A DNA stretch of 64,000 nt from Ferrithrix thermotolerans DSM 19514. Lineage in GTDB: Bacteria > Actinomycetota > Acidimicrobiia > Acidimicrobiales > Ilumatobacteraceae. The notes under the pieces were generated by a model. It saw nothing but the letters and a program-made list of their open reading frames with translations, did not search any database and was not told where the DNA came from. A program made the position numbers and the translations under genes. Of this stretch, positions 38,355-61,166 are shown piece by piece; within the stretch, counting starts at the first letter, position 1, and each line of letters opens with the position of its first letter. The DNA lies in NCBI GenBank assembly GCA_945861025.1, contig CAMASN010000006.1:1-64000 (forward strand), given 5' to 3'.

Positions 38355-39842
38355 ATGACTGCGAACACTCCCTTGAGTAATGTCTGCGTTCTCGCGCTTG
38401 ATGCCGGTACAACCGGCGTGCGCGCTCGGGCAGTGTTCACCGACGGGCGTGCGCCCGTGTCGTCGTATCGCGAGTTCACCCAACACTTCCCCCAACCGGG
38501 CTGGGTCGAGCACGATGCGCTCGAGATCTGGCAGGCCGCCAAAGAGACCATCAACGACGTCCTGAGCCGCCTCGACGCGTTGCCGGCGGCCATTGGTATC
38601 ACCAACCAACGCGAGACCGCCGTGGCCTGGAGTCGCTCTACCGGCACGCCGCTGCACCGAGCAATCGTGTGGCAAGACCGCCGCACCGCCGAGCGCTGCG
38701 ACCAACTCGAGGCCGATGGCGCATTGCCGCTCGTACGCCAACGCACTGGCCTTGTGCTCGACCCCTACTTCAGTGGCACCAAGTTCGAATGGATGCTCAC
38801 CCACGGCGGCGTAGAGGCCAACGACGACCTTGCGCTCGGCACGATCGACTCGTGGCTGCTGTTCAACCTCACCGGCGGCCGCGTGCACGCCACCGACCCA
38901 TCCAATGCCAGCCGAACCATGCTGTTCGACATCGGCACGCTCGCATGGGACACCGACCTATGCGCCCTGCTCAACGTGCCGATGCATGCGCTCGCCGAGG
39001 TGTCTCCCTCGAGCGGCCGCTTTGGATTCACCAGCGAAGACAGCGGAGTACCTGCGGGCATTCCGATCTCCGGCATCGCTGGCGACCAGCAAAGCGCCCT
39101 CTTCGGACAAGCGTGCTTTAACCCTGGCATGGCCAAGAACACCTACGGAACCGGCAGTTTCGTGTTGCTCAACGTTGGGTCAACATGCCCCGAACCCAGT
39201 GAAGGCATGCTCACCACGGTGGCGTGGACACTGGCCGACGGCACCACCACCTATGCGCTCGAGGGCGCCATCTTCGTAACCGGCGCTGCGGTTCAGTGGC
39301 TTCGTGACGGGCTACAGATCATCGCGTCAAGCGAAGAGGTGGGGCCGCTCGCCGCAAGTGTGCCCGATTCTGGCGGCGTCTACATCGTGCCCGCGTTTAC
39401 CGGCCTTGGCAGCCCGTGGTGGGACCCGTATGCCCGCGGCTCAATCTTGGGTATCACCCGCGGCACCACCCGCGCTCACATAGCTCGCGCTGTCGTAGAG
39501 GCAATGACATACCAAGTTCGCGACGCCGTCGATGCAATGACCGCCGTGTCCGGCACAACGCTGCATGATCTACGCGTCGATGGTGGCGCATCGGTGCTCG
39601 ACATGATGTTGCAAATGCAAGCAGATCAGCTCGGTGTCACTGTTCGTCGTCCTCGCGACCAAGAGACCACCGCGCTCGGCGCTGCGTTCCTCGCTGGCCT
39701 CGCCGAAGGAGTGTGGCCCTCGCTTGAGGCAATCTCCGCACGGTGGCAACTGGAAGCAGAGTTCAGCCCATCACAAGATCGTGCAGTTGCAGATGCTCAG
39801 CACACGCAATGGTTGCGCGCCGTGGAGCGCACTCGCTACTGA
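38355..39842 (+). CDS. glpK: glycerol kinase
   Basis: 495 residues, FGGY family. Starts with ALDAGTTGVRAR where GlpK usually has DQGTTSSR. Hallmarks that separate GlpK from other FGGY kinases are present: GITNQRET, IVWQDRRTA, GMAKNTYGTGSFVLLNVG and VDGGASVLDMMLQMQADQLG with ETTALGAAFLAGLAEGVW. It phosphorylates glycerol to glycerol-3-phosphate, feeding the glpD located at 54.4 kb. A more diverged FGGY kinase occurs in the glpD operon, so two kinases exist in this window. Confidence 0.93.
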   Translation: MTANTPLSNVCVLALDAGTTGVRARAVFTDGRAPVSSYREFTQHFPQPGWVEHDALEIWQAAKETINDVLSRLDALPAAIGITNQRETAVAWSRSTGTPLHRAIVWQDRRTAERCDQLEADGALPLVRQRTGLVLDPYFSGTKFEWMLTHGGVEANDDLALGTIDSWLLFNLTGGRVHATDPSNASRTMLFDIGTLAWDTDLCALLNVPMHALAEVSPSSGRFGFTSEDSGVPAGIPISGIAGDQQSALFGQACFNPGMAKNTYGTGSFVLLNVGSTCPEPSEGMLTTVAWTLADGTTTYALEGAIFVTGAAVQWLRDGLQIIASSEEVGPLAASVPDSGGVYIVPAFTGLGSPWWDPYARGSILGITRGTTRAHIARAVVEAMTYQVRDAVDAMTAVSGTTLHDLRVDGGASVLDMMLQMQADQLGVTVRRPRDQETTALGAAFLAGLAEGVWPSLEAISARWQLEAEFSPSQDRAVADAQHTQWLRAVERTRY

Positions 39843-51439: not shown

Positions 51440-52045
51440 TCAGCCTAAGAGATCGCCAAGGAGCTCGGCGACCGTGGCCGACGACAGTTCGGCCGACTCG
51501 CGATACGCAGGGTGATCGATCTCAAGAGAGGCCTGACCAGCACCCAGTGTTTCAATCTCGGCTGGGGTCATCGAGAACTGCAGATAATGAACGGCACTGG
51601 TGACATCGGCACGAGTGAGTTGGCTGGCGTGTTGTTGCTCGGGAGCCGAGCGAATAACGCTGCCATCGCAGAGTCGAAGAACAACGTGATTCTCAATACC
51701 CACAAGCCGTGGAAGCCATTCGCGAATCGCTTGGTCTGAGGTGAGTTCAATAAACATCGTGGCGCACAGCTGGCCAGTATCGGGAATAAGCGGGTTATAA
51801 GCATCGATCTCGGCCTGAATCTCGAGATCGGTCATCAGCTTCTCGACCCGAGCCATTTCTTGGATCTGATAGCGAATCGTCTCTCGGGACTCAAACGAAA
51901 CCGTGACGATGGTGCCCAACGAGACACGACGCCTGCGGCGCAGTTCGAGCACGCTGTCTCTGAACTCTGCCCGCTCACGCTCGTAGGCGCGTAGGTCGGC
52001 GATATCGCCAAGTGCCAACTTTCGGGTCGATGCTGCTGTGTTCAT
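51440..52045 (-). CDS. DUF3501 protein
   Basis: 201 residues: KLALGDIADLRAYERERAEFR, RRRVSLGTIVTVSFESRETIRYQ, MTDLEIQAEIDAYNPLIPD and ATMFIELTS are family-typical. DUF3501 genes regularly follow a rubrerythrin and a CCG-type Fe-S protein in one operon, exactly as here, yet no activity is known. Its ATG overlaps the Fe-S gene stop (ATGA). Confidence 0.9.
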   Translation of the reverse strand: MNTAASTRKLALGDIADLRAYERERAEFRDSVLELRRRRRVSLGTIVTVSFESRETIRYQIQEMARVEKLMTDLEIQAEIDAYNPLIPDTGQLCATMFIELTSDQAIREWLPRLVGIENHVVLRLCDGSVIRSAPEQQHASQLTRADVTSAVHYLQFSMTPAEIETLGAGQASLEIDHPAYRESAELSSATVAELLGDLLG

Positions 52046-53355
52046 CGGGTGCCTTCCTCGATAGCGATGCCGTAGGCGCGTGCCACGACCTGAATGGGGT
52101 GCTGGGGAACTTTGCCGGTTTGTTCGTTGATTGCGGTGTTCGCGAGATGACAATCGCCAGCCACCACTTCTCCGTTGGCACGAGTGATCTCGTCGCCCAA
52201 CTTCTTGGCAATCGGAAGCGAAATATCGGAGTTCTCAGCACGTAGACCCCACATGCCATCGATGCCACTGCACTGCTGCACAAGCTTGATCTTGGCGCCC
52301 GTGAGTTTCATCAGGTCGCGGCTCTTGAGCCCGATGTTCTGAGCCCGCAAGTGACACGGCGTGTGATACGTGATGGATTCGGGAACGTGGCCAGTGAATT
52401 CGGTGTCGAGCGACGTGTCATCGTCGCGGTGCACCTTCATCAAGTACTCGGCTGCGTCGTAGGTATTGTCTGCAACGGCTTGCGCCTGCGACCCGCCGAC
52501 ATAGTCGAGATAGTCCTTCTTCAGGATGTATCCACACGTTGGCTGCGGCACCACAATGTCGTTGCCCTTGCGAACTTCGGCGGCAAGAATTTTTACGTTC
52601 TTGTTGGCCACCTTTTTGAACTGATCCATGTCGCCGCTGTGCAGCCACGGGGCACCACAGCAACCAATATCGGCCAACGACACCTCGATGCCGTTGCGCT
52701 CGTACACCTTGACGAGGTCGTGGCCAATACCTGGCTCTTGATATTCAACGAGACAGGTAGGAAACAACGCAACACGGCCCTGACGCTTACCGATGCGCAC
52801 CTTTGGCCGGCGGTTGAACCATGTCGAGAAGCGCTGTCGACTGAACGGCGGCAGCATTCGCACGCTTGAGACACCCGCTGTCTTTTCGACCACTTTGCGG
52901 ATCACGCTGCCGGGCTTGGCGCCAAGAACTTTGTTGGCAATAGGGGCCGTGGCGCTGCCTACCTTGCCGAGCAGATCAGTGCGACCCATCATCTGGGTGG
53001 TGGCCTTGTCGCGCACTGAGGCGTGGCCGGTTTCTTGAAGCATGGCGTCGGCTCGCAGCATCAGGCGAGGAAAATCGAGTGCCCACTCGTGCTGGCCCGG
53101 AACGTATGGGCACACCACGTAGCACAGCTTGCATTGGAAACATTCGTCGACAACTTGGTCCTGCTGGGCTGGCGTGAGCCGACCGGCGTCTTGGTCGTCG
53201 TGGTTATCGATCATCTCGAACAACGTCGGGAACGATGTACAGAACTTGAAACAAATGCGGCAACCGTGACAAAGGTCGTATACCCGCGTGAGTTCGTCGC
53301 GGACGTCGGCCTCATCGAGGTACTGGGGGTGGAAGGGGTCGTATGTCGTTGTCAT
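52042..53355 (-). CDS. heterodisulfide reductase/GlpC-type Fe-S protein (CCG domains)
   Basis: 437 residues. Two [4Fe-4S] clusters from [11 protein letters not shown] and [12 protein letters not shown] near residues 30-90, followed by two CCG domains (FPTCLVEY with [26 protein letters not shown] with [10 protein letters not shown]). No membrane anchor. The protein probably passes electrons, here likely to rubrerythrin, giving peroxide reduction without rubredoxin; the pairing is known from gene order in many bacteria, the direction of flow is inference. The ATG at 53355 starts [17 protein letters not shown]. Confidence 0.9.
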
Positions 53356-53372
53356 GAGTTTGCCTCGAGTGT

Positions 53373-53401
53373 GTTGCGCCGGCGACAAGCGCCGGCGCAA
53401 C
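53373..53401 (-). other. perfect 12-bp hairpin between rubrerythrin and Fe-S genes
   Basis: GTTGCGCCGGCG-N5-CGCCGGCGCAAC forms an uninterrupted 12-bp, GC-rich stem in the 69-base gap. No T-tract follows on the minus strand, so it is not a classical terminator. It may protect the 3' end of the rubrerythrin message or cause partial read-through. Confidence 0.7.
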
Positions 53402-53424
53402 TACTCAGTTGTAGGGGATGTTGT

Positions 53425-53841
53425 TCAGTCGAGGCTGTCGAGGCCCTGCTGGAACTTGCCAGCATGGCTCTTCTCGGCGCGTGCCAGTGTCTCGAACCAG
53501 TCGGCGATCTCGCCAAAACCTTCGTCGCGAGCGGTCTTGGCGAAGCCTGGGTACATCTGCGTGTACTCGTAGGTCTCACCGGCGATGCTGGACTTGAAGT
53601 TGTCGCTGGTCTCGCCGATTGGCTCGCCAGTTGCTGGGTCGCCGACTTCGGAGAGGTACTCAAGGTGACCGAGAGCGTGGCCCGTCTCGCCCTCGGCGAC
53701 TGAACGGAACAACGATGCCGCGTCGGGGTAACCCTCGACATCGGCCTTCTGAGCGAACCATGTGTAGCGGCGGTTTGCCTGGCTCTCGCCGGCGAATGCC
53801 TCTTTCAGGTTCTCGTGTGTCTTAGTGCCTTGCAGGCCCAT
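53425..53841 (-). CDS. rubrerythrin, diiron domain only
   Basis: 138 residues. Ferritin-like four-helix bundle: [61 protein letters not shown] and [17 protein letters not shown] supply the carboxylates and histidine of a diiron site. There is no C-terminal rubredoxin domain and no cysteine at all, so electrons must come from another protein, probably the CCG-type Fe-S protein downstream. It reduces hydrogen peroxide. AAGGAG lies 8 bases before the ATG. It follows fur by 46 bases. Confidence 0.93.
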
Positions 53842-53887
53842 GGTTGGCTCCTTTTTGCTTGTGATAGTTGTGTTGAATGGAGAAGGA

Positions 53888-54322
53888 TTAGACCGTGTCG
53901 GCGCAGCGCACGCAGCGGCCGCGAAACACAATGTCGGTGCTCGCCGTCGCAAACGAGTGCGCATCTGGCTCGTTGCGTAGCGAAACGTTGAGTTGGTCGA
54001 CACCGTCGACGTACACATCGGTGATCTCGTCGCACGACACACACACCTGATGGTGATGCTGGCCGACGTTGGGATCGAAGCGGATCGCGCCGCCACCAAA
54101 CGCGATCGACTGCAGTTCGCCCATACCGGCGAGGTCGGTGAGCGTTTGGTACACGGTGCGCAATGAGATACCAGGCATCTGCGCGCTCGCCACCTCGAAC
54201 AGGGCCTCGGCAGTGGGGTGGGTGGTGTTGTCGTGCAACAACCGAAAGAGCAACTGTCGTTGCGGGGTCACCTTGAGGCCCAACGAACGAAAGGCTGTGG
54301 TGAGTTCGGCCGGTGTGCGCAC
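53888..54322 (-). CDS. Fur-family regulator, PerR-like
   Basis: 144 residues. Winged helix with LGLKVTPQRQLLFRLLHD and GISLRTVYQTLTDLAGMGEL; regulatory domain with GQHHHQVCVSCDEITDVY and a last CVRCADTV, giving two CxxC pairs for structural zinc. With rubrerythrin next in line it is most likely a peroxide or iron sensor. Start is GTG with no ribosome site; a -10 ends 7 bases before it, so it is probably leaderless. Confidence 0.92.
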   Translation of the reverse strand: MRTPAELTTAFRSLGLKVTPQRQLLFRLLHDNTTHPTAEALFEVASAQMPGISLRTVYQTLTDLAGMGELQSIAFGGGAIRFDPNVGQHHHQVCVSCDEITDVYVDGVDQLNVSLRNEPDAHSFATASTDIVFRGRCVRCADTV

Positions 54323-54440: not shown

Positions 54441-56111
54441 ATGATTTCCGCCTCGAACAACACCTCCTTCGATCGAAACACGATGCTCGAACGGCTCGCC
54501 CACGAAGAGTTCGACATCGTCGTTGTCGGCGGCGGAATCACCGGCGTTGGAGTCGCTCTCGACGCCGCGAGCCGCGGATTACGCACTGCCCTCGTCGAGC
54601 GCGACGACTTCGCTTCTGGCACGTCGTCAAAGAGCTCCAAGCTTGTCCACGGCGGCCTGCGCTATCTGCAGCAGGGCGAGGTTCGCCTCGTGTACGAAGC
54701 ACTGCACGAGCGCCAGCGACTGCGCCGCAACGCACCACACCTGGTGTCTGTGATGCCGTTCATGATCCCCATTCTCACCAAGGGCGGCGTGGTGTCACGC
54801 AAGATCGCGCGCGCCCTCGGCAGCTCAATGTGGATGTACGACCTCACCGGCGGATGGCGCATCGGCAAACTGCACAAGCGACTGCGCAAGGCCGCTGCAT
54901 TTCAACATCTGCCAACCATGCACGCCGACCGACTGGCCTCGGCCTATTTGTATTACGACGCGAGCGCCGACGATGCCCGTTTGTGCCTCACGGTGGCGCT
55001 CACCGCTGCCCATCACGGCGCCGCAGTCGCGAACCAGTGCCCGGTCGTACGCATCATAAAAGACTCCGCAGGCCACGCCAACGACGTTGTTGTTCGCGCC
55101 GATGATCGCGAGATCACCGTGCGCGCCAAGGTTGTCGTCAACGCTGCAGGCGTGTGGGCCGACGATGTTCGCGCTCTCGCCGAAGCAACTCACCCCGACT
55201 CGATTCGTCCGGCCAAAGGCGTTCATATCACCGTGCCGTGGAGCATGGTGCGCAACGACATCGCCGTCATCATTCCAGTGCCCAAGGATCGCCGCAGCTT
55301 GTTCGTGGTGCCGTGGGGACCCAATGCCGACGGCACGTTTCAGTACACATATGTGGGCACCACCGACACCGACTTCGACGGCGACGCCGACGACCCGCAG
55401 TGCACCAAAGACGACATCGATTATGTCTTGCGAGCCCTCAACGCTGCGGTCACTACCGACATCACCGAGGCCGACATCACTGGCGTGTGGTCGGGGCTTC
55501 GACCATTGGTTAAGTCGGTCGAATCTGGTCGCACCGCCGACCTTTCGCGTCGCCATAGCATCACCACCAACGATGCGGGCGTTATCAGCGTTACCGGCGG
55601 CAAGCTCACTACCTATCGAGAGATGGCCGAAGACACCGTCGACAAAGCGTTGCTGCAGCTCAAGCGCAAGGCGCGCTGCCGCACCAAGGCGCTCAAGCTT
55701 GTCGGCGCTGCCGGATTCAAAGCCGGCACTCCGGGCTCCGTCGATGCACATCTGGCGTCTCGCCACGGTGGGCAAGCAACGTCGGTGCAAGCACTCATCG
55801 CCGCCGATCCAACCCTTGGCGCACCGCTGATTGAGGGCCTCCCCTACCTGCGCGCCGAGGCCATCTACGCCGTGCGTTACGAGATGGCTCAGAGCCTCGA
55901 CGACATCTTGACCCGACGCACTCGTGCCCGACTGTTCGACCGCGATGCCACCATGCGCGCCTCCGAGTCGGTAGCCGCACTCATCGCTGCCGAATTTGGT
56001 TGGGACGATGCCACAACGGCCGACCAAGTGGCGTCGTTTCTCGCCAGTTGCGAAGACGAAATTTCCGCTGCAACCATCGGCGATGCCGACCTCAGAAAGG
56101 CACAGGCGTGA
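54441..56111 (+). CDS. glpD: FAD-dependent glycerol-3-phosphate dehydrogenase
   Basis: 556 residues. FDIVVVGGGITGVGVALDA is the FAD Rossmann loop (about 24-42); GTSSKSSKLVHGGLRYLQQGE, AAGVWADDV, VPKDRRSLFVVPWG and GGKLTTYREMAEDTVD are GlpD-typical. It oxidises glycerol-3-phosphate to dihydroxyacetone phosphate and passes electrons to quinone. It heads an operon of four genes joined by 4- to 10-base overlaps. It is divergent from the Fur-family regulator, so the two promoters share 118 bases. Confidence 0.95.
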   Translation: MISASNNTSFDRNTMLERLAHEEFDIVVVGGGITGVGVALDAASRGLRTALVERDDFASGTSSKSSKLVHGGLRYLQQGEVRLVYEALHERQRLRRNAPHLVSVMPFMIPILTKGGVVSRKIARALGSSMWMYDLTGGWRIGKLHKRLRKAAAFQHLPTMHADRLASAYLYYDASADDARLCLTVALTAAHHGAAVANQCPVVRIIKDSAGHANDVVVRADDREITVRAKVVVNAAGVWADDVRALAEATHPDSIRPAKGVHITVPWSMVRNDIAVIIPVPKDRRSLFVVPWGPNADGTFQYTYVGTTDTDFDGDADDPQCTKDDIDYVLRALNAAVTTDITEADITGVWSGLRPLVKSVESGRTADLSRRHSITTNDAGVISVTGGKLTTYREMAEDTVDKALLQLKRKARCRTKALKLVGAAGFKAGTPGSVDAHLASRHGGQATSVQALIAADPTLGAPLIEGLPYLRAEAIYAVRYEMAQSLDDILTRRTRARLFDRDATMRASESVAALIAAEFGWDDATTADQVASFLASCEDEISAATIGDADLRKAQA

Positions 56112-57589
56112 TCCAACCAACTGCCCCAATCGAACTCGCAGGCACTGCCGATCATTTCGCTGGCAACTCTGTTGCGCTCACCGATGCCTTCATCGCTCAA
56201 CTGAGCGCTGTGTGCGAAGCAAGCACCGACATCAATGCCACGGCCGACGTCAGCCGCGACTGGTGGCCACTGTCTATGCACTGGGCGCTTGCCGGCAAAG
56301 TGCCACGCCGCGCCGCTGTGGTGGTGAAGCCAACCACCACCGCCGAGGTCAGCGAGATTGCTCGCCTCTGCAACATCGAACACGTTCCGCTTACGGTGGC
56401 CGGCGGACGCTCAGGTGTCTGCGGAGCCAGCGTTCCCGTCTTTGGTGGCGTAGTGCTCGACTCAACCGCACTGCGCGGCCTTCTCAGCGTCGACGTCGCT
56501 TCTGGAATCGTCGAGGTGCTGCCCGGCACTTTTGGCCCCGACCTCGAAGCAGAACTCCGCTCGCAGTACGGCCTCACGGTTGGCCATCTGCCGCAGAGCT
56601 TCGATATTGCCACCGTGGGCGGATGGGTCGCATGCCGCGGCGCAGGCCAATACAGCACCCGCTACGGCAAGATCGAAGACATGGTCGTGGGCCTCGAGGT
56701 GGTGCTCGCCGATGGCACCGTGATCTCCACCGGCGGCAGTCCGGCCGCAGCGATGGGGCCCGATCTCAACCAGTTGTTCCTCGGCTCCGAAGGCACGCTT
56801 GGCATCATCACGCGCATCTGGTTGCGAGCACACCCTGTGGCCCAAACCGAGCGCCGCGCGGCCTATAGCTTCCCCACATTCGAAGCCGGCATCGAAGCCT
56901 GCCGTCAGATCATTCGCCGCGGCGCCACGCCCGCCGTGCTTCGCCTGTACGACGCCGCAGAGTCCGCCCGCGGCCAAGGTGGCGACGGCACACAAAACAT
57001 GCTGCTCGTGCTCGACGAAGGCGACGTGCGCCTTGTCGATGCAGTCATGCACATCGTCGACGAAGTTGCCACGGCCCAGGGCGCCACAAACCTCGGACCA
57101 GCGCTTGTCGACGCGTGGACTCACCATCGCAACGACACCAGCGCGCTGCAGGCCCTCACACGCAAGGGCTTCGTGGTCGACACACTCGAGATCGCCGCAC
57201 CATGGTCAGCTCTCACCAACATTTTCGATGCCGTTCGCACCGAGATGCTCGGCGTTCCATACGCCCGCAGTTCCACGTGTCACCTCAGCCACAGCTACCT
57301 CGATGGCGCGTGCCTGTACTTCACCTTCGCAGCTACTCCCCCGCCCGAAGAGGTTGAGAACGCCTACGTCGCGATGTGGGACGCTGGCCAGCGCGCCGTG
57401 CTCGCTCATGGCGGCAACCTCTCGCATCACCACGGCGTCGGCCTGAACAGAAGCAGGTTCATGGTCGAGGCACTCGGCGCGGCACATGGCGTGCTCGTTG
57501 CCATGAAACAAGCGCTCGATCCCAACGGAATTCTGAATCCCGGCAAGATGGCGATGCCCTCATCGTTCGGTACCCCCGCATGGCCGTGA
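56108..57589 (+). CDS. alkyl-DHAP-synthase-like FAD-linked oxidase
   Basis: 493 residues, GTG start overlapping the glpD stop. PCMH-type FAD domain with PLTVAGGRSGVCGAS, GHLPQSFDIATVGGWVACRG and GSEGTLGIITRIWLR; the C-terminal part has SSTCHLSHSYLDGACLYFTF and LSHHHGVGLNRSRFM, the HHH motif and the Tyr/Ser region known from alkylglycerone-phosphate synthase (AGPS). AGPS swaps the acyl group of acyl-DHAP for an alkyl group, the first step to ether lipids. Position after glpD, which makes DHAP, fits a DHAP-derived substrate. Glycolate- or lactate-oxidase-like activity is the alternative. Confidence 0.85.
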   Translation: MIQPTAPIELAGTADHFAGNSVALTDAFIAQLSAVCEASTDINATADVSRDWWPLSMHWALAGKVPRRAAVVVKPTTTAEVSEIARLCNIEHVPLTVAGGRSGVCGASVPVFGGVVLDSTALRGLLSVDVASGIVEVLPGTFGPDLEAELRSQYGLTVGHLPQSFDIATVGGWVACRGAGQYSTRYGKIEDMVVGLEVVLADGTVISTGGSPAAAMGPDLNQLFLGSEGTLGIITRIWLRAHPVAQTERRAAYSFPTFEAGIEACRQIIRRGATPAVLRLYDAAESARGQGGDGTQNMLLVLDEGDVRLVDAVMHIVDEVATAQGATNLGPALVDAWTHHRNDTSALQALTRKGFVVDTLEIAAPWSALTNIFDAVRTEMLGVPYARSSTCHLSHSYLDGACLYFTFAATPPPEEVENAYVAMWDAGQRAVLAHGGNLSHHHGVGLNRSRFMVEALGAAHGVLVAMKQALDPNGILNPGKMAMPSSFGTPAWP

Positions 57590-57987
57590 GCAGTCGCTGG
57601 GATCTTGTCGCACTCAAGCAAGGTGCTGCCGTAACCCTTGCGTTCGCCGTGCCATTCTCGGTGTTGGCGCGCATCTTGCACGAAAACGATGAAAACAACA
57701 GTTTCGTCGTGCCACTAGTACTCGCTGCGATTGTCGGCTTCGTGCTCGGCTCCGGAGTCGCCGCATGGCGCCAGCGCGCGAACAGTCCGTTGTCTCACGG
57801 CATCGTCACCGCTGCAGGCACCTACAGCGCTGTGCAAGGAACACTCGTCGTGATCAACCTCATTCGAGGCGCGAACATCAGTTGGTTCGCACTTCTGTTC
57901 AACCTCACGGTCACTCTTGCAGCCGGCCTGATGGGCGGTTTTTTGGGTATGGCCTTGCAACGTCAAGGACTGGAGCCCCGCCGATGA
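57580..57987 (+). CDS. four-helix membrane protein in the glpD operon
   Basis: 135 residues. Helices at about 11-29, 41-59, 72-92 and 100-125; the last contains NLTVTLAAGLMGGFLGMAL. No charged catalytic pattern or known family is recognised. Start is the ATG at 57580 or the GTG at 57586 (GTGA overlap with the preceding stop). The stop overlaps the kinase start (ATGA). Coupling on both sides says it works with the enzymes, perhaps as a transporter or membrane anchor. Confidence 0.75.
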   Translation: MAVSSRWDLVALKQGAAVTLAFAVPFSVLARILHENDENNSFVVPLVLAAIVGFVLGSGVAAWRQRANSPLSHGIVTAAGTYSAVQGTLVVINLIRGANISWFALLFNLTVTLAAGLMGGFLGMALQRQGLEPRR

Positions 57988-59432
57988 GCGTGCTCGTTAT
58001 CGATGTCGGAACCAGCGGACTCCGCTCCGCGATCGTCACTGCCGATGCCACGGTCGGCCATGTCGATTATCAAGCGTTTGCTCCGTCTACCCCAGCGCCA
58101 GGCCTCGTCGAGTTCGATGCAATGGCGATGGGACGAGCTGTTCTGCAGGTCGCAAACGCAACCTTGGCGGCCACCACCGATCGCATCGACGCCGTTGGCA
58201 TCAGCGCCCAGCGAGCCTCAACCGTGGTGTGGGATCGCGCAACGGGCGACCCTGTGGGGCCGGCGCTTGGCTGGCAAGATCTACGCACCGTCTTCGACTG
58301 CATCATGGCCAAAGCAGATCACGGCCTTGCGCTCGCCCCGAATCAGTCGGCCACCAAGTTGAGTTGGTTGCTCAACACCTATGACCCCGATCGCTCACGC
58401 GACCTGATGTTCGGCACCATCGATTGCTGGATTGCTTGGGTGGTCTCGGGTGGCTCGCTGCACATCACCGACCACACCAACGCTGCAGTCACCGGCCTAT
58501 ACGACACGGCGCTGCGGAACTGGTCAATGCGCGCATGTGAGGCGCTCAACATCCCAATGCGCATGCTGCCCACCATCGTCGATTCCAGCGGCGAACTCGG
58601 CACAGCAACCGCATTGCCAGGTGCACCCATGATTGGCGGACTCGCAGGCGATCAGCAGGCGTCGCTGGTGGGCCAAGGATGCGTGCGTCCGGGGCAGGCC
58701 AAGATCACGTTCGGCACGGGCGGCATGCTCGACCTGTGCACCGGCTCCGAACCGCCGCGCAGCTCAAATCGCAGCAGCAACGGCACGTTCCCCATCGTGG
58801 CGTGGACCCGCAACGGCGAAGCCACGTGGGGCGTCGAAGCCATCATGTTGTCGGCCGGCACCAACGTCGAGTGGCTTCGCGACGATCTCGGCATTATTGC
58901 CACCGCTGCCGACAGCCACACGGTTGCGTCGCAGTGCGACACCACCGATGGCGTCGTCTATGTTCCAGCGTTACTCGGCCTCGGCACACCGCGTTGGGAC
59001 TACGGCGCTCGCGGTGCGTTGTTCGGCATCACTCGCGGCACGGGCCGCGCCCACATTGTGCGCGCCGTGCTCGAAGGCATTGCTCACCGCGGCGCCGATC
59101 TGGTCGAAGCCGCCGAGGCCGATACCGGTCTCAGCATTCCGGCGCTGCGAATCGACGGCGGAATGAGCGAGAATCCAACCTTCACGCAGGCGTTGGCAAA
59201 CGCCACTGGCCGCCCCGTAGAGGTGTCGCCAGTGACCGAGGCAACCACGCTCGGAGCCGGTTACCTCGCCGGACTCGCAGCGGGTACGTGGACTGACCTC
59301 AACGAGGTGGCAGACTCTTGGGCGCCCGCTCTTGTGGTCGAGCCAAACGGCTCACTCGACCGCCAAAGTTGGCAGCAGGCAATCGAACGTTCTGCGCGTT
59401 GGATACCTGACCTATCAGCGCTCGACTTCTAG
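57984..59432 (+). CDS. FGGY-family carbohydrate kinase
   Basis: 482 residues. VIDVGTSGLRSAIV (phosphate loop), VGISAQRASTVVWDRATG, GWQDLRT, GLAGDQQASLVGQG, KITFGTGGMLDLCTG and RIDGGMSENPTFTQALAN define the two actin-like FGGY domains. It resembles glycerol kinase in layout but departs at GlpK-specific segments (no AKNTYGTG). Possible substrates are glycerol, dihydroxyacetone or an alkylglycerol. A conventional glpK is present at 38 kb, so this one probably has another substrate. Last gene of the operon. Confidence 0.88.
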   Translation: MSVLVIDVGTSGLRSAIVTADATVGHVDYQAFAPSTPAPGLVEFDAMAMGRAVLQVANATLAATTDRIDAVGISAQRASTVVWDRATGDPVGPALGWQDLRTVFDCIMAKADHGLALAPNQSATKLSWLLNTYDPDRSRDLMFGTIDCWIAWVVSGGSLHITDHTNAAVTGLYDTALRNWSMRACEALNIPMRMLPTIVDSSGELGTATALPGAPMIGGLAGDQQASLVGQGCVRPGQAKITFGTGGMLDLCTGSEPPRSSNRSSNGTFPIVAWTRNGEATWGVEAIMLSAGTNVEWLRDDLGIIATAADSHTVASQCDTTDGVVYVPALLGLGTPRWDYGARGALFGITRGTGRAHIVRAVLEGIAHRGADLVEAAEADTGLSIPALRIDGGMSENPTFTQALANATGRPVEVSPVTEATTLGAGYLAGLAAGTWTDLNEVADSWAPALVVEPNGSLDRQSWQQAIERSARWIPDLSALDF

Positions 59433-59493
59433 AGTTGCTGCGCATAGCTCCGGCCGTCAAAGCTGGGGAAACACTTCGAAAGGACCTTGGTTC

Positions 59494-60201
59494 GTGGATA
59501 TCAAGCAAGCGGCACTCCCCACAGCAGCCGCACATACCGCTGGCGAGTCGGCACCCATGGCACGCCGGCGCATTCTGGCAGCTGGCGTCTCCGGCGCAGC
59601 GCTCTCGATGCTCCCATGGCTCAGCGATCGCGCTGGCGCTCAGGCACGCACCGCACCTCCAACCTCGGGTAGCGAAACGGTGACTACCCCAGCGCCTACC
59701 ACCACTGCTGCGGCGCCGAAACGGCCCACCACCGCCGACATCGAACTGCTTGCGGTTGCGCAGAGCATCGAGCTCGCCATCCGCGACCTCTACGACGCAA
59801 CCCTTGCTGCAAATTCGTTCGAGGGCGCAACTGCCGAGGCCATCACCGCGATTCGCGAGGCGCACGAGGCCTATGCCCAATCCATCTCCGGCCTCATTGG
59901 CTCAGATGCCCCTGGCATTCGCAGCGACAAGCTCTACAACGCTCAGCGCAGCAACTTCAGCGGCTCGGCTGCCGCAGTAGCTCAGTCCGCTGCCGACCTC
60001 GAGAATGTCGCCGTTGCCACGCACATCGACATTCTGGGCTCACTCATTGGCGTCGACGCCACCGGGCTCATTGCCTCAATCCTCGTCGTCGAAGCTCGCC
60101 ATGCCACGGTGCTCAACACCATCGCAGGCGCATCCACGCTCTCTAACCAGCTCGCAAGCGACGGCGTTGCCCTGTCGCCTGCCGACTATCCAGTGAAGTG
60201 A
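59494..60201 (+). CDS. exported ferritin-like domain protein (Tat signal)
   Basis: 235 residues from a GTG with AAAGGA upstream. MARRRILAAGVSGAALSML inside the first 45 residues is a twin-arginine-type signal ending near DRAGAQA. A Thr/Pro linker follows, then a helical region with ELLAVAQSIELAIRDLYDATL and VVEARHATVLNTIAG, the Glu and ExxH spacing of ferritin-like/DUF4439-type bundles. Whether it binds iron is unclear. The stop overlaps the next gene (GTGA), which encodes a related protein. Confidence 0.75.
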   Translation: MDIKQAALPTAAAHTAGESAPMARRRILAAGVSGAALSMLPWLSDRAGAQARTAPPTSGSETVTTPAPTTTAAAPKRPTTADIELLAVAQSIELAIRDLYDATLAANSFEGATAEAITAIREAHEAYAQSISGLIGSDAPGIRSDKLYNAQRSNFSGSAAAVAQSAADLENVAVATHIDILGSLIGVDATGLIASILVVEARHATVLNTIAGASTLSNQLASDGVALSPADYPVK

Positions 60202-61166
60202 CGATCATGAACAACCAGACCTCCCCCGATACCTTCATCAGCGCCGAGCCACTCAGCCGCCGCGGCCTTCTCCGCGTTGGCGGCCTCACCATTGGCCTCG
60301 CCACGCTGGCCGCTGCGTGCGTCACTGAGGCCAAAGAGAACGAACCTGCGCGAGTTGGCGATGTCACGCCGCCTACACCGCTGCCCGATGCCGTGGTTAC
60401 CGATGGCGTGTTGTTCCGCACCGCTGCGTCCGTGCACTACAGCATCATTGACGCTCACAAGATGAGCAAGGAACTCGGCAACCTCAGCCCCGCACAGACC
60501 GCCATCGTCGACGCCTACATCGCCGCCAACGAAGCAGCCATCCGAGACCTCGCAAGGTCCACCACCGACGCGGGCTCAAAGCCATGGACCTGCGCTAACC
60601 CACGTTTCGACCGTGTGCTGCTTGCACCGATTCGCGATCGCATCGCCGGCCGCCCCAGAACGGGCAGCGAATCGGCCGACCTTGAGCCCAGCGATGACCC
60701 AACCCGAGACGCGCTTGCCTTGGCTCATGCAATGGAGACACTCGCTGCCGAGATGCACCAGTCACTGGTGCCGCAGTTATCGCTTCCCAAGTACCGCTCT
60801 GCGGTCATGCAGCAGGCTCAGGCCGCAGCGCGTCGCGCAGCAGCGCTCGCGTTGGCCATCAACCCAGCCAACATCGTGAACCCGTTGTCGCTCGAGAACG
60901 CAAACGTTTCCACCCCAACCACGGTTGAGGTAACCACTACCACTGCTGCTCAAGACATCACACAGAGCACCGACGCCCCGGCCACCACGGTCGCCGCAGC
61001 GGCTCCGTTCGGCTTCCAGCAGTACTACGCGCTCCCGAGCCAGTTTGGCTCGCTCAACGCAGTGCAGTTGGCCGTGGGCGTGCCCAGCGGCGGCGCACAG
61101 TTCACGATCAACCTCGAGACGCCAAGCCTCAACTCGTTCGTGTACGACTACCAAACCGAGTGCTGA
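60198..61166 (+). CDS. Tat lipoprotein with ferritin-like fold
   Basis: 322 residues. SRRGLLRVGGLTIGLATLAAAC combines a twin-arginine motif with a lipobox (Cys41 lipidated). Helices at about 75-120 and 170-230 include HAMETLAAEMHQSLVPQ, a Glu/His pattern like the neighbour's ExxH. A Thr-rich linker (about 235-270) leads to a C-terminal part without family match, ending YDYQTEC. It is coupled to the preceding ferritin-like gene. Similar pairs occur in Acidimicrobiia as I recall. Role unknown; iron storage or electron transfer outside the membrane is a guess. Confidence 0.7.
   Translation: MTIMNNQTSPDTFISAEPLSRRGLLRVGGLTIGLATLAAACVTEAKENEPARVGDVTPPTPLPDAVVTDGVLFRTAASVHYSIIDAHKMSKELGNLSPAQTAIVDAYIAANEAAIRDLARSTTDAGSKPWTCANPRFDRVLLAPIRDRIAGRPRTGSESADLEPSDDPTRDALALAHAMETLAAEMHQSLVPQLSLPKYRSAVMQQAQAAARRAAALALAINPANIVNPLSLENANVSTPTTVEVTTTTAAQDITQSTDAPATTVAAAAPFGFQQYYALPSQFGSLNAVQLAVGVPSGGAQFTINLETPSLNSFVYDYQTEC

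Follow-up and report, generated by a model that had tools for sequence, protein, structure and literature searches.

The closest described relative of the genes treated here is alkyl-dihydroxyacetone phosphate (alkyl-DHAP) synthase, the flavoprotein AGPS or ADPS of mammals, Dictyostelium and, as MXAN_1676, myxobacteria. We compare with it a protein encoded in a four-gene operon of Ferrithrix thermotolerans DSM 19514, found in a stretch of 64,000 nucleotides (assembly GCA_945861025.1, contig CAMASN010000006.1, positions 1 to 64,000) that is called the window below. In the mechanism proposed for AGPS, a tyrosine abstracts a proton, an adduct forms at flavin N5 and the substituent at C1 is exchanged, and R352, Y508 and R447 of the Dictyostelium enzyme are reported to be important for catalysis (PMC3509576). 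MXAN_1676 lies with a fusion of fatty acyl-CoA reductase (FAR) and GNPAT (PMC9131029), and myxobacterial Agps homologues have been surveyed as markers of ether lipids, with Actinobacteria among the most abundant matches in suboxic water (PMC11868695).

For the breakdown of alkylglycerols, AGMO, which is known from animals, is called the sole enzyme described (PMC7911779, PMC3617469), and an alkylglycerol kinase activity is cited as well (PMC9131029, PMC7911779). In the mycobacterial cluster glpD1-TetR-Rv2251-Rv2252, a BCG expression table gives similar values for all four genes (2.11-2.28), with the neighbouring Rv2247-Rv2248 changing as well (PMC4564863). Archaeal glycerol-3-phosphate dehydrogenases have been assigned to five kinds of gene neighborhood, none with an AGPS-like gene in the accessible part of that account (PMC11962113). 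Among the matches listed from the open-licence literature, taken by their titles and the starts of their abstracts, none described a cassette of glpD, an AGPS-like gene and a kinase gene or an ether breakdown of AGPS type.

Here, we find that such a trio is conserved across the class Acidimicrobiia (below, the class; the order is that of the window). We propose that the operon is a module for the breakdown of O-alkylglycerols, and thus of ether lipids, a reading that, going by the sequences, we regard as evenly balanced between right and wrong.

RESULTS

Layout of the operon

The operon opens with the gene for a GlpD-like glycerol-3-phosphate dehydrogenase, followed by those for the AGPS-like flavoprotein, for a small membrane protein and for an FGGY kinase, and each gene begins before the preceding one has ended (Table 1). 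The overlaps are 4 bases (GTGA) between glpD and the AGPS-like gene, 10 bases with the ATG start or 4 bases with the GTG start of the membrane protein, and 4 bases (ATGA) between the latter and the kinase gene. The coordinates and overlaps of the four coupled genes are those of the original prediction, which had been made from the DNA letters and their open reading frames, and Pfam and NCBIfam agree on the families (DAO/DAO_C, FAD_binding_4/FAD-oxidase_C and FGGY_N/C).

Identity of the AGPS-like flavoprotein

The closest sequence matches of the flavoprotein in the PDB are AGPS structures (172.6 and 170.7 bits, versus 117.7 for D-lactate dehydrogenase and 106.3 for glycolate oxidase), and the HHH and SHSYLDGAC segments on which its first assignment rested are both present. 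The AGPS signature positions in the window protein are H160, R279, Y404 and H440-H442. In guinea pig numbering, H300, R419, Y578, C576, H615, H616 and H617 are identical in 68/68 proteins of the class, among them the catalytic Tyr578 (Y508 in Dictyostelium), Arg419 (R352) and His616/617. D303 is replaced by Gln in all 68 proteins, and the column of Arg515 (Arg447 in Dictyostelium) holds no Arg in any of them; the alignment has a gap there, and by another alignment the window protein has Leu. The HxGDGNxH and EHG motifs of hydroxyacid enzymes, which we take to be the metal site of glycolate, D-lactate and D-2-hydroxyglutarate dehydrogenases, are absent, and SHSYLDGACLY and HHHG stand in their place. 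A GlcD-type protein of the same genome, P0001, carries HAGDGNLH and GEHG. Two more FAD oxidases of the genome, encoded on contigs C1 and C35, exceed the family cut-off. Both are without the AGPS signature, and the one on C1 has GlcD-type motifs; a fourth match falls below the cut-off.

In a tree of 96 rows, built by a quick method and with many open forks, the AGPS-signature proteins split from the hydroxyacid type with full support, and the window protein falls with them and not with the glycolate or D-lactate oxidases, which bears out the AGPS assignment in the test proposed for it. The clade of the window (24 rows, support 98, starred) stands apart from the clade holding the eukaryotic AGPS of Dictyostelium and guinea pig, which also takes in a Gemmatimonadetes protein (L166; such labels denote fetched regions) and mycobacterial-type proteins. 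The predicted structure (pLDDT 92.9) has AGPS in all of its top 29 Foldseek rows and aligns with 5ae3 over 466 residues. Because VIA-align gives a tie between AGPS (Z 41.3, rmsd 2.1, 466 aligned) and the mammalian D-lactate dehydrogenase LDHD (Z 41.5, rmsd 2.5, 438 aligned), it is the residues, not the fold, that decide the identity. An identity as a glycolate or D-lactate oxidase was rejected on the residues and the tree, the fold comparison alone being indecisive. Judged by its catalytic signature, the flavoprotein is AGPS-like, and Gln303, the missing Arg447/515 and the separate branch place it outside AGPS proper.

The FGGY kinase

The operon kinase scores 394 bits against the NCBIfam GlpK model TIGR01311, under the cut-off of 590, whereas an ordinary glpK elsewhere in the window reaches 612 bits. 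The GlpK signature consists of R83, E84, Y135, D245 and F270 in Escherichia coli numbering, four of which bond glycerol hydroxyls (PMC3245297), and the residues of Plasmodium glycerol kinase agree with it (PMC2680290). In the window kinase, the signature reads R-A-N-D-M, with three of five positions changed (pocket R83, A84, W103, N135, D245 and M270). Across the 67 operon kinases of the class, in an alignment that holds at least one locus twice, R83, W103, D245 and Q246 are kept throughout, E84 is always replaced (by A, G, S, C or Q), Y135 is always N, and F270 is M in 66. The AGPS-linked kinases of archaea keep F270, but all 17 in the alignment have A, S or G for E84 and a residue other than Tyr at position 135.

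In a tree of 45 rows, seven ordinary GlpKs form one clade (95/89), with the class kinases (100/99) and the archaeal kinases (100/99) separate from it. Six of these seven come from five genomes that also carry an AGPS-like cassette; the signature is R-E-Y-D-F in five of the seven, while the sequence from Vulcanisaeta is a fragment (R-E) and a mycobacterial one has G at R83. The prediction that the kinase is not an ordinary GlpK and that a true glpK lies nearby is borne out on both counts. If one end of the glycerol were blocked by an ether, contacts of the E84/Y135 type would be impossible there and room would be needed, which fits the substitutions seen.

Conservation of the trio within the class

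An AGPS-like ortholog (E<=1e-100) is present in 74 of the 198 class genomes, that of the window included, and any match (E<=1e-30) in 110. Eighty regions were fetched, comprising 67 ortholog loci from the 73 other ortholog-bearing genomes, 11 distant AGPS-like loci and the regions of the two FAD oxidases in the genome of the window. Genes in the fetched loci were called by a simple codon-usage caller, and neighbors were found by phmmer with few queries, so that misses are possible; contig ends cut off some loci, and the loci are related, with at least two regions counted twice (L205 = L040 and L213 = L067). Within a distance of 4.5 kb from the AGPS-like gene, 59 of the 67 ortholog loci have both glpD and the FGGY kinase gene, 3 the kinase gene alone and 5 glpD alone, and the gap between glpD and the AGPS-like gene, as estimated from alignment starts, is at most 150 bases in 60 of 65 measured loci. 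The trio is a conserved unit of the class.

The membrane protein is not. The gap between the AGPS-like gene and the kinase gene could be measured in 61 class loci (67 read, 6 without a measurable kinase), and in 39 of them it is at most 159 bases, too short for the membrane protein (L050, at -673, is an artefact among them). There is room for a small protein, or one is carried, in 21 loci, and one locus (L093) has another insertion. A small gene takes the place of the membrane protein in L091, L094 and L096, with no kinase nearby, and the L091 protein has no Pfam match. The window protein itself has four predicted helices, a low-confidence model (pLDDT 54) and a sub-threshold match to DUF3792. 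The membrane protein, considered obligate in the original prediction, is an accessory and optional member of the cassette.

The best PDB matches of the GlpD-like protein are 3da1 and alpha-glycerophosphate oxidase. It has the DAO and DAO_C domains and scores 323 bits against PRK12266, below the cut-off of 360. A second GlpD-like gene on another contig is 33% identical over the matched part.

As a separate observation, an acyl-CoA synthetase-like gene is found in 20/74 clustered class regions (e.g., L057 and L061), often upstream of glpD and on the same strand; the one checked by Pfam and NCBIfam, that of L057, belongs to the PRK07798 family.

Neighbors in other bacteria

In the phylum, 97 of 396 genomes have an AGPS-like match (E<=1e-50), class members included. 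Of 40 phylum loci outside the class, 25 have a lipid kinase of the DAGK/YegS family close to the AGPS-like gene, 23 have glpD there and 8 an FGGY kinase gene, and 7 have no kinase. The order glpD - TetR - AGPS-like - DAGK recurs in Mycobacterium, Nocardia and related loci, and in L155, which has this order, the kinase scores 520 bits against the Rv2252-family model (cut-off 302). As named relatives, we took the best 80 of 587 matches to a search alignment headed by Dictyostelium AGPS. Within 4.5 kb, glpD, DAGK or FGGY is found in 41/55 of these loci with the AGPS signature versus 0/25 of the others, which are 24 of the hydroxyacid type and L186, AGPS-like with Thr for Tyr578 (Fisher p 4e-11, with the relatedness of the loci not corrected for). 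When all 173 AGPS-signature loci are taken together, related as they are and a few counted twice, DAGK is present in 41, FGGY in 91, both in none and neither in 41.

The Gemmatimonadetes protein L166, grouped with eukaryotic AGPS, keeps D303 and R447, and its gene adjoins one for a fatty acyl-CoA reductase (PF07993 + PF03015). The neighbors separate the AGPS-proper type (L166 and one case from the literature) from the family of the window.

Two further kinds of neighbor were seen. L129 (the one checked by Pfam), L130, L132, L152, L191, L203 and several archaea have a gene for a CCG iron-sulfur protein that overlaps the AGPS-like gene or comes after it. In the bacterial loci among them, which belong to the actinobacterial phylum, a metagenome-assembled genome (MAG) of Bacillota and a deltaproteobacterial MAG, it stands between the AGPS-like gene and DAGK. 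Afipia, Brucella tritici and an unclassified bacterium have flavoproteins paired with a xylulokinase-like FGGY kinase (Table 1); these AGPS-signature proteins possibly represent a sugar-directed use of the same chemistry.

Cassettes in archaea

In the Vulcanisaeta phylum, an AGPS-like protein is also present in 36 of 300 genomes, including that of Vulcanisaeta itself. The Vulcanisaeta locus (L197) is a row of five genes whose starts mostly overlap; they encode a PF04185 phospholipase-C/phosphatase-like protein, a DAO/GlpO-like protein, a GlpB-like protein, an FGGY kinase and the AGPS-like protein. We read this locus and 20 more, two of the 21 being from one genome. In 18 loci, a DAO/GlpA-like gene is accompanied by an FGGY kinase (17 kinases, and that of L267 by tblastn), which lies several genes downstream in three of them, and a phospholipase-C-like PF04185 gene heads 6 of the 21 (Pfam was run on L197 only). 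L274, L275 and L277 have neither a DAO/GlpA-like gene nor a kinase, and their AGPS-like proteins have lost H300 and R419.

Genes that resemble fatty acid genes were seen beside further archaeal AGPS-like copies, in L262 and, as the gene that comes after the AGPS-like one (reverse strand), in L275. Judged by eye, these neighbors are acyl-CoA synthetase-like and enoyl-CoA hydratase-like.

Surroundings of the operon in the window

Divergent to the operon lies a group of genes for a PerR-like regulator, rubrerythrin, a GlpC/HdrB-like CCG iron-sulfur protein and what is presumably a DUF3501-like protein. In various loci of the order, the whole group or part of it likewise adjoins the operon. Downstream of the kinase gene are genes for a Ferritin_2 protein and a lipoprotein-like protein without a Pfam match, a pair that follows the kinase in most of the same-family loci read.

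Table 1. Positions of the operon genes and of other features named in the text (window coordinates unless a region is given)
Feature	Position	Strand	Remarks
GlpD-like FAD-dependent glycerol-3-phosphate dehydrogenase, 556 aa	54441..56111	+	PF01266 + PF16901
AGPS-like flavoprotein, 493 aa	56108..57589	+	GTG start; FAD_binding_4 + FAD-oxidase_C
Small four-helix membrane protein	57580..57987	+	ATG 57580 or GTG 57586 start; weak DUF3792/TIGR04086 match
FGGY kinase, altered glycerol pocket	57984..59432	+	ATG start; FGGY_N/C
Ordinary glpK	38355-39842		above GlpK cut-off
Divergent PerR-rubrerythrin group	51440-54322	-	
GlpC-like gene of the divergent group	52042-53400	-	
Ferritin_2 and lipoprotein-like proteins	59332-61166	+	
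FAR-like protein	L278 1-2136 (own contig C72)	-	PF07993 + Sterile + HAD; cut by contig end
Flavoprotein paired with xylulokinase-like kinase, Afipia	L192 5812-8858		
Flavoprotein paired with xylulokinase-like kinase, Brucella tritici	L200 3477-6562		
Flavoprotein paired with xylulokinase-like kinase, unclassified bacterium	L204 3069-6223		
Further archaeal AGPS-like copy	L262 7780-10877		beside apparent fatty acid genes

DISCUSSION

The proposed pathway builds on what could be observed directly: a conserved operon with changed residues in its proteins, the exchange of kinases and the occurrence in archaea. In it, the FGGY kinase would phosphorylate a glycerol bearing an ether-linked chain to 1-O-alkyl-glycerol-3-phosphate, and GlpD would oxidize the middle carbon to give 1-O-alkyl-DHAP. 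The AGPS-like flavoprotein would then run the chemistry of AGPS backwards by taking the C1 proton, forming the flavin N5-DHAP adduct and expelling the fatty alcohol, after which water (or a carboxylate) would resolve the adduct and DHAP would enter central metabolism. The place of the FGGY kinase is taken by a lipid kinase of the DAGK/YegS family in many other actinobacteria. The exchange of DAGK for FGGY, together with the phospholipase-like gene in some archaea, points to the same pathway. The original prediction had allowed for either direction. Since members of the family are mostly found with GlpD and a kinase and not with fatty acyl-CoA reductase, alkylglycerol breakdown has more support than synthesis, and the idea that GlpD supplies DHAP for synthesis is not supported. 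A wider proposal, which we put forward tentatively and would sooner doubt than assert, is that an oxygen-independent cleavage of ether lipids by reversed AGPS chemistry may be common to actinobacteria, some Bacteroidota and thermophilic archaea and that the FGGY kinase, or DAGK in its stead, might be the missing gene for alkylglycerol kinase.

Several observations weigh against breakdown of alkylglycerols. Arg447 of Dictyostelium ADPS, reported to be important for catalysis (PMC3509576), is not conserved in the family of the window, and the mycobacterial counterpart carries Rv2252, described as a diacylglycerol kinase for phospholipid synthesis (PMC3229680). The active-site motifs of GlpD look usual in alignments judged by eye, with the roles of the residues as we take them to be, and nothing points to acceptance of an alkyl chain. 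The second ether at sn-2 of archaeol would block the GlpD step, and only monoethers fit. A FAR-like gene is present in the genome, and the CCG iron-sulfur protein beside some members would also fit a redox role. Linkage is incomplete, since both glpD and a kinase are missing from the surrounding 4.5 kb in 6 of the 11 paralog loci of the class and in 14 of the 55 AGPS-signature loci among the best 80 of 587 relatives. Two archaeal loci, L271 and L272, carry the kinase yet have Gln for H300. The family is also not uniformly linked to lipids: some distant AGPS-signature genes (Afipia, Brucella tritici, L150, L204) have a xylulokinase-like FGGY kinase as their neighbor, and the kinase found about 1.8 kb from the gene of the L138 type is xylulo-/fuculokinase-like.

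The main rival is ether-lipid synthesis, with the AGPS-like enzyme running forward to join acyl-DHAP and a fatty alcohol into alkyl-DHAP while the kinase and GlpD feed in DHAP or the kinase recycles alkylglycerols. The AGPS catalytic residues are mostly kept, and the FAR-like protein (PF07993 + PF03015 + HAD) and the phospholipid role of the mycobacterial kinase also suit it. We nevertheless consider synthesis unlikely. D303 and R447 are changed, and the operon holds no acyltransferase or reductase (acyltransferases, GNPAT-like ones included, were not searched for elsewhere in the genome). Archaea carry the cassette although they make their own ether lipids by another route. If synthesis were the role, the family should also be linked to fatty acyl-CoA reductase. 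The FAR-like protein occurs in 38 of 198 class genomes (E<=1e-60), 37 of them in the order, where 24/36 genomes with the AGPS ortholog and 13/15 without it have FAR (51 genomes, Fisher p 0.18; 4 of the 15 without an ortholog at E<=1e-100 hold a more distant AGPS-like protein). This lack of a positive association weakens synthesis, as does the finding that outside the order all 38 genomes with the ortholog lack this FAR, in a search that covered no other type of reductase. A search for PEDS1/CarF (PF10520) matched no genome, controls included, and is uninformative.

Two variants of the pathway seem improbable to us to about the same degree, and more so than synthesis. According to the first, the AGPS-like protein would be a dehydrogenase and not a transferase, oxidizing C1 of alkyl-DHAP or another DHAP derivative and passing the electrons to a partner. 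The CCG-like proteins at AGPS-like genes and the divergent GlpC-like gene in the window would supply such a partner, but the GlpD/GlpA genes near several of these iron-sulfur genes would explain them as GlpC, and the GlpC-like gene of the order belongs to the divergent PerR-rubrerythrin-DUF3501-like group. According to the second, the same three steps would act on a non-lipid glycerol derivative such as a glycosyl-, aryl- or short-alkyl-glycerol ether. The kinase pocket suggests only something other than plain glycerol, and partners in distant clades are xylulokinase-like; such a substrate fits poorly with lipid kinases of the DAGK/YegS family in the place of the kinase in 41/173 loci, with the phospholipase-C-like gene in 6/21 archaeal loci or with the acyl-CoA synthetase-like gene in 20/74 clustered class regions. 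Plain catabolism of glycerol or dihydroxyacetone by a duplicated kinase and GlpD homologous to the glycerol enzymes, with the AGPS-like gene as an unrelated passenger, is very unlikely. It was rejected on the kinase signature, as the aligned AGPS-linked kinases have lost the glycerol-binding E84 and Y135, and on the separate true GlpK, which the genome keeps along with a second GlpD-like gene. In addition, the genes stay linked to AGPS-like ones in different phyla.

Cleaving the ether bonds of alkylglycerols is difficult, and a conserved gene set with the right order of steps would make their breakdown testable. If alkylglycerol breakdown is indeed the role of the operon, glycerol monoethers, including leftovers of archaeal and bacterial ether lipids, would be recycled to DHAP and fatty alcohol, and a candidate gene for alkylglycerol kinase activity would be on offer; we know of no gene assigned to that activity. 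For mycobacteria, it would also hint at what the flavoprotein encoded next to glpD1 and the diacylglycerol kinase gene does. Our findings also warn that not every metagenomic "agps homologue" is an ether-lipid maker.

Compared with the known systems, the flavoprotein resembles AGPS/ADPS (EC 2.5.1.26) in its best sequence and Foldseek matches and in H300, R419, Y578, C576 and H615-H617, and it differs in Gln303, the non-Arg residue at R447/R515, its separate clade and its neighbors, GlpD and a kinase. The mycobacterial glpD1-TetR-Rv2251-Rv2252 cluster likewise brings together GlpD, an AGPS-like flavoprotein and a kinase (L168-L170 and L176), but there the kinase is of the DAGK/YegS and not the FGGY family, the arrangement is divergent with TetR, and the flavoprotein keeps R447. 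The operon kinase shares the fold family of GlpK along with R83, W103, D245 and Q246, while E84, Y135 and F270 are changed, its clade is separate and its score is under the GlpK cut-off; its predicted reaction is that of alkylglycerol kinase (EC 2.7.1.93). AGMO breaks the ether bond of alkylglycerols, as we propose for the operon, but it is a tetrahydrobiopterin-dependent monooxygenase from an unrelated family. The operon brings together known families in an arrangement that we have not found described, with probably a new direction of AGPS chemistry.

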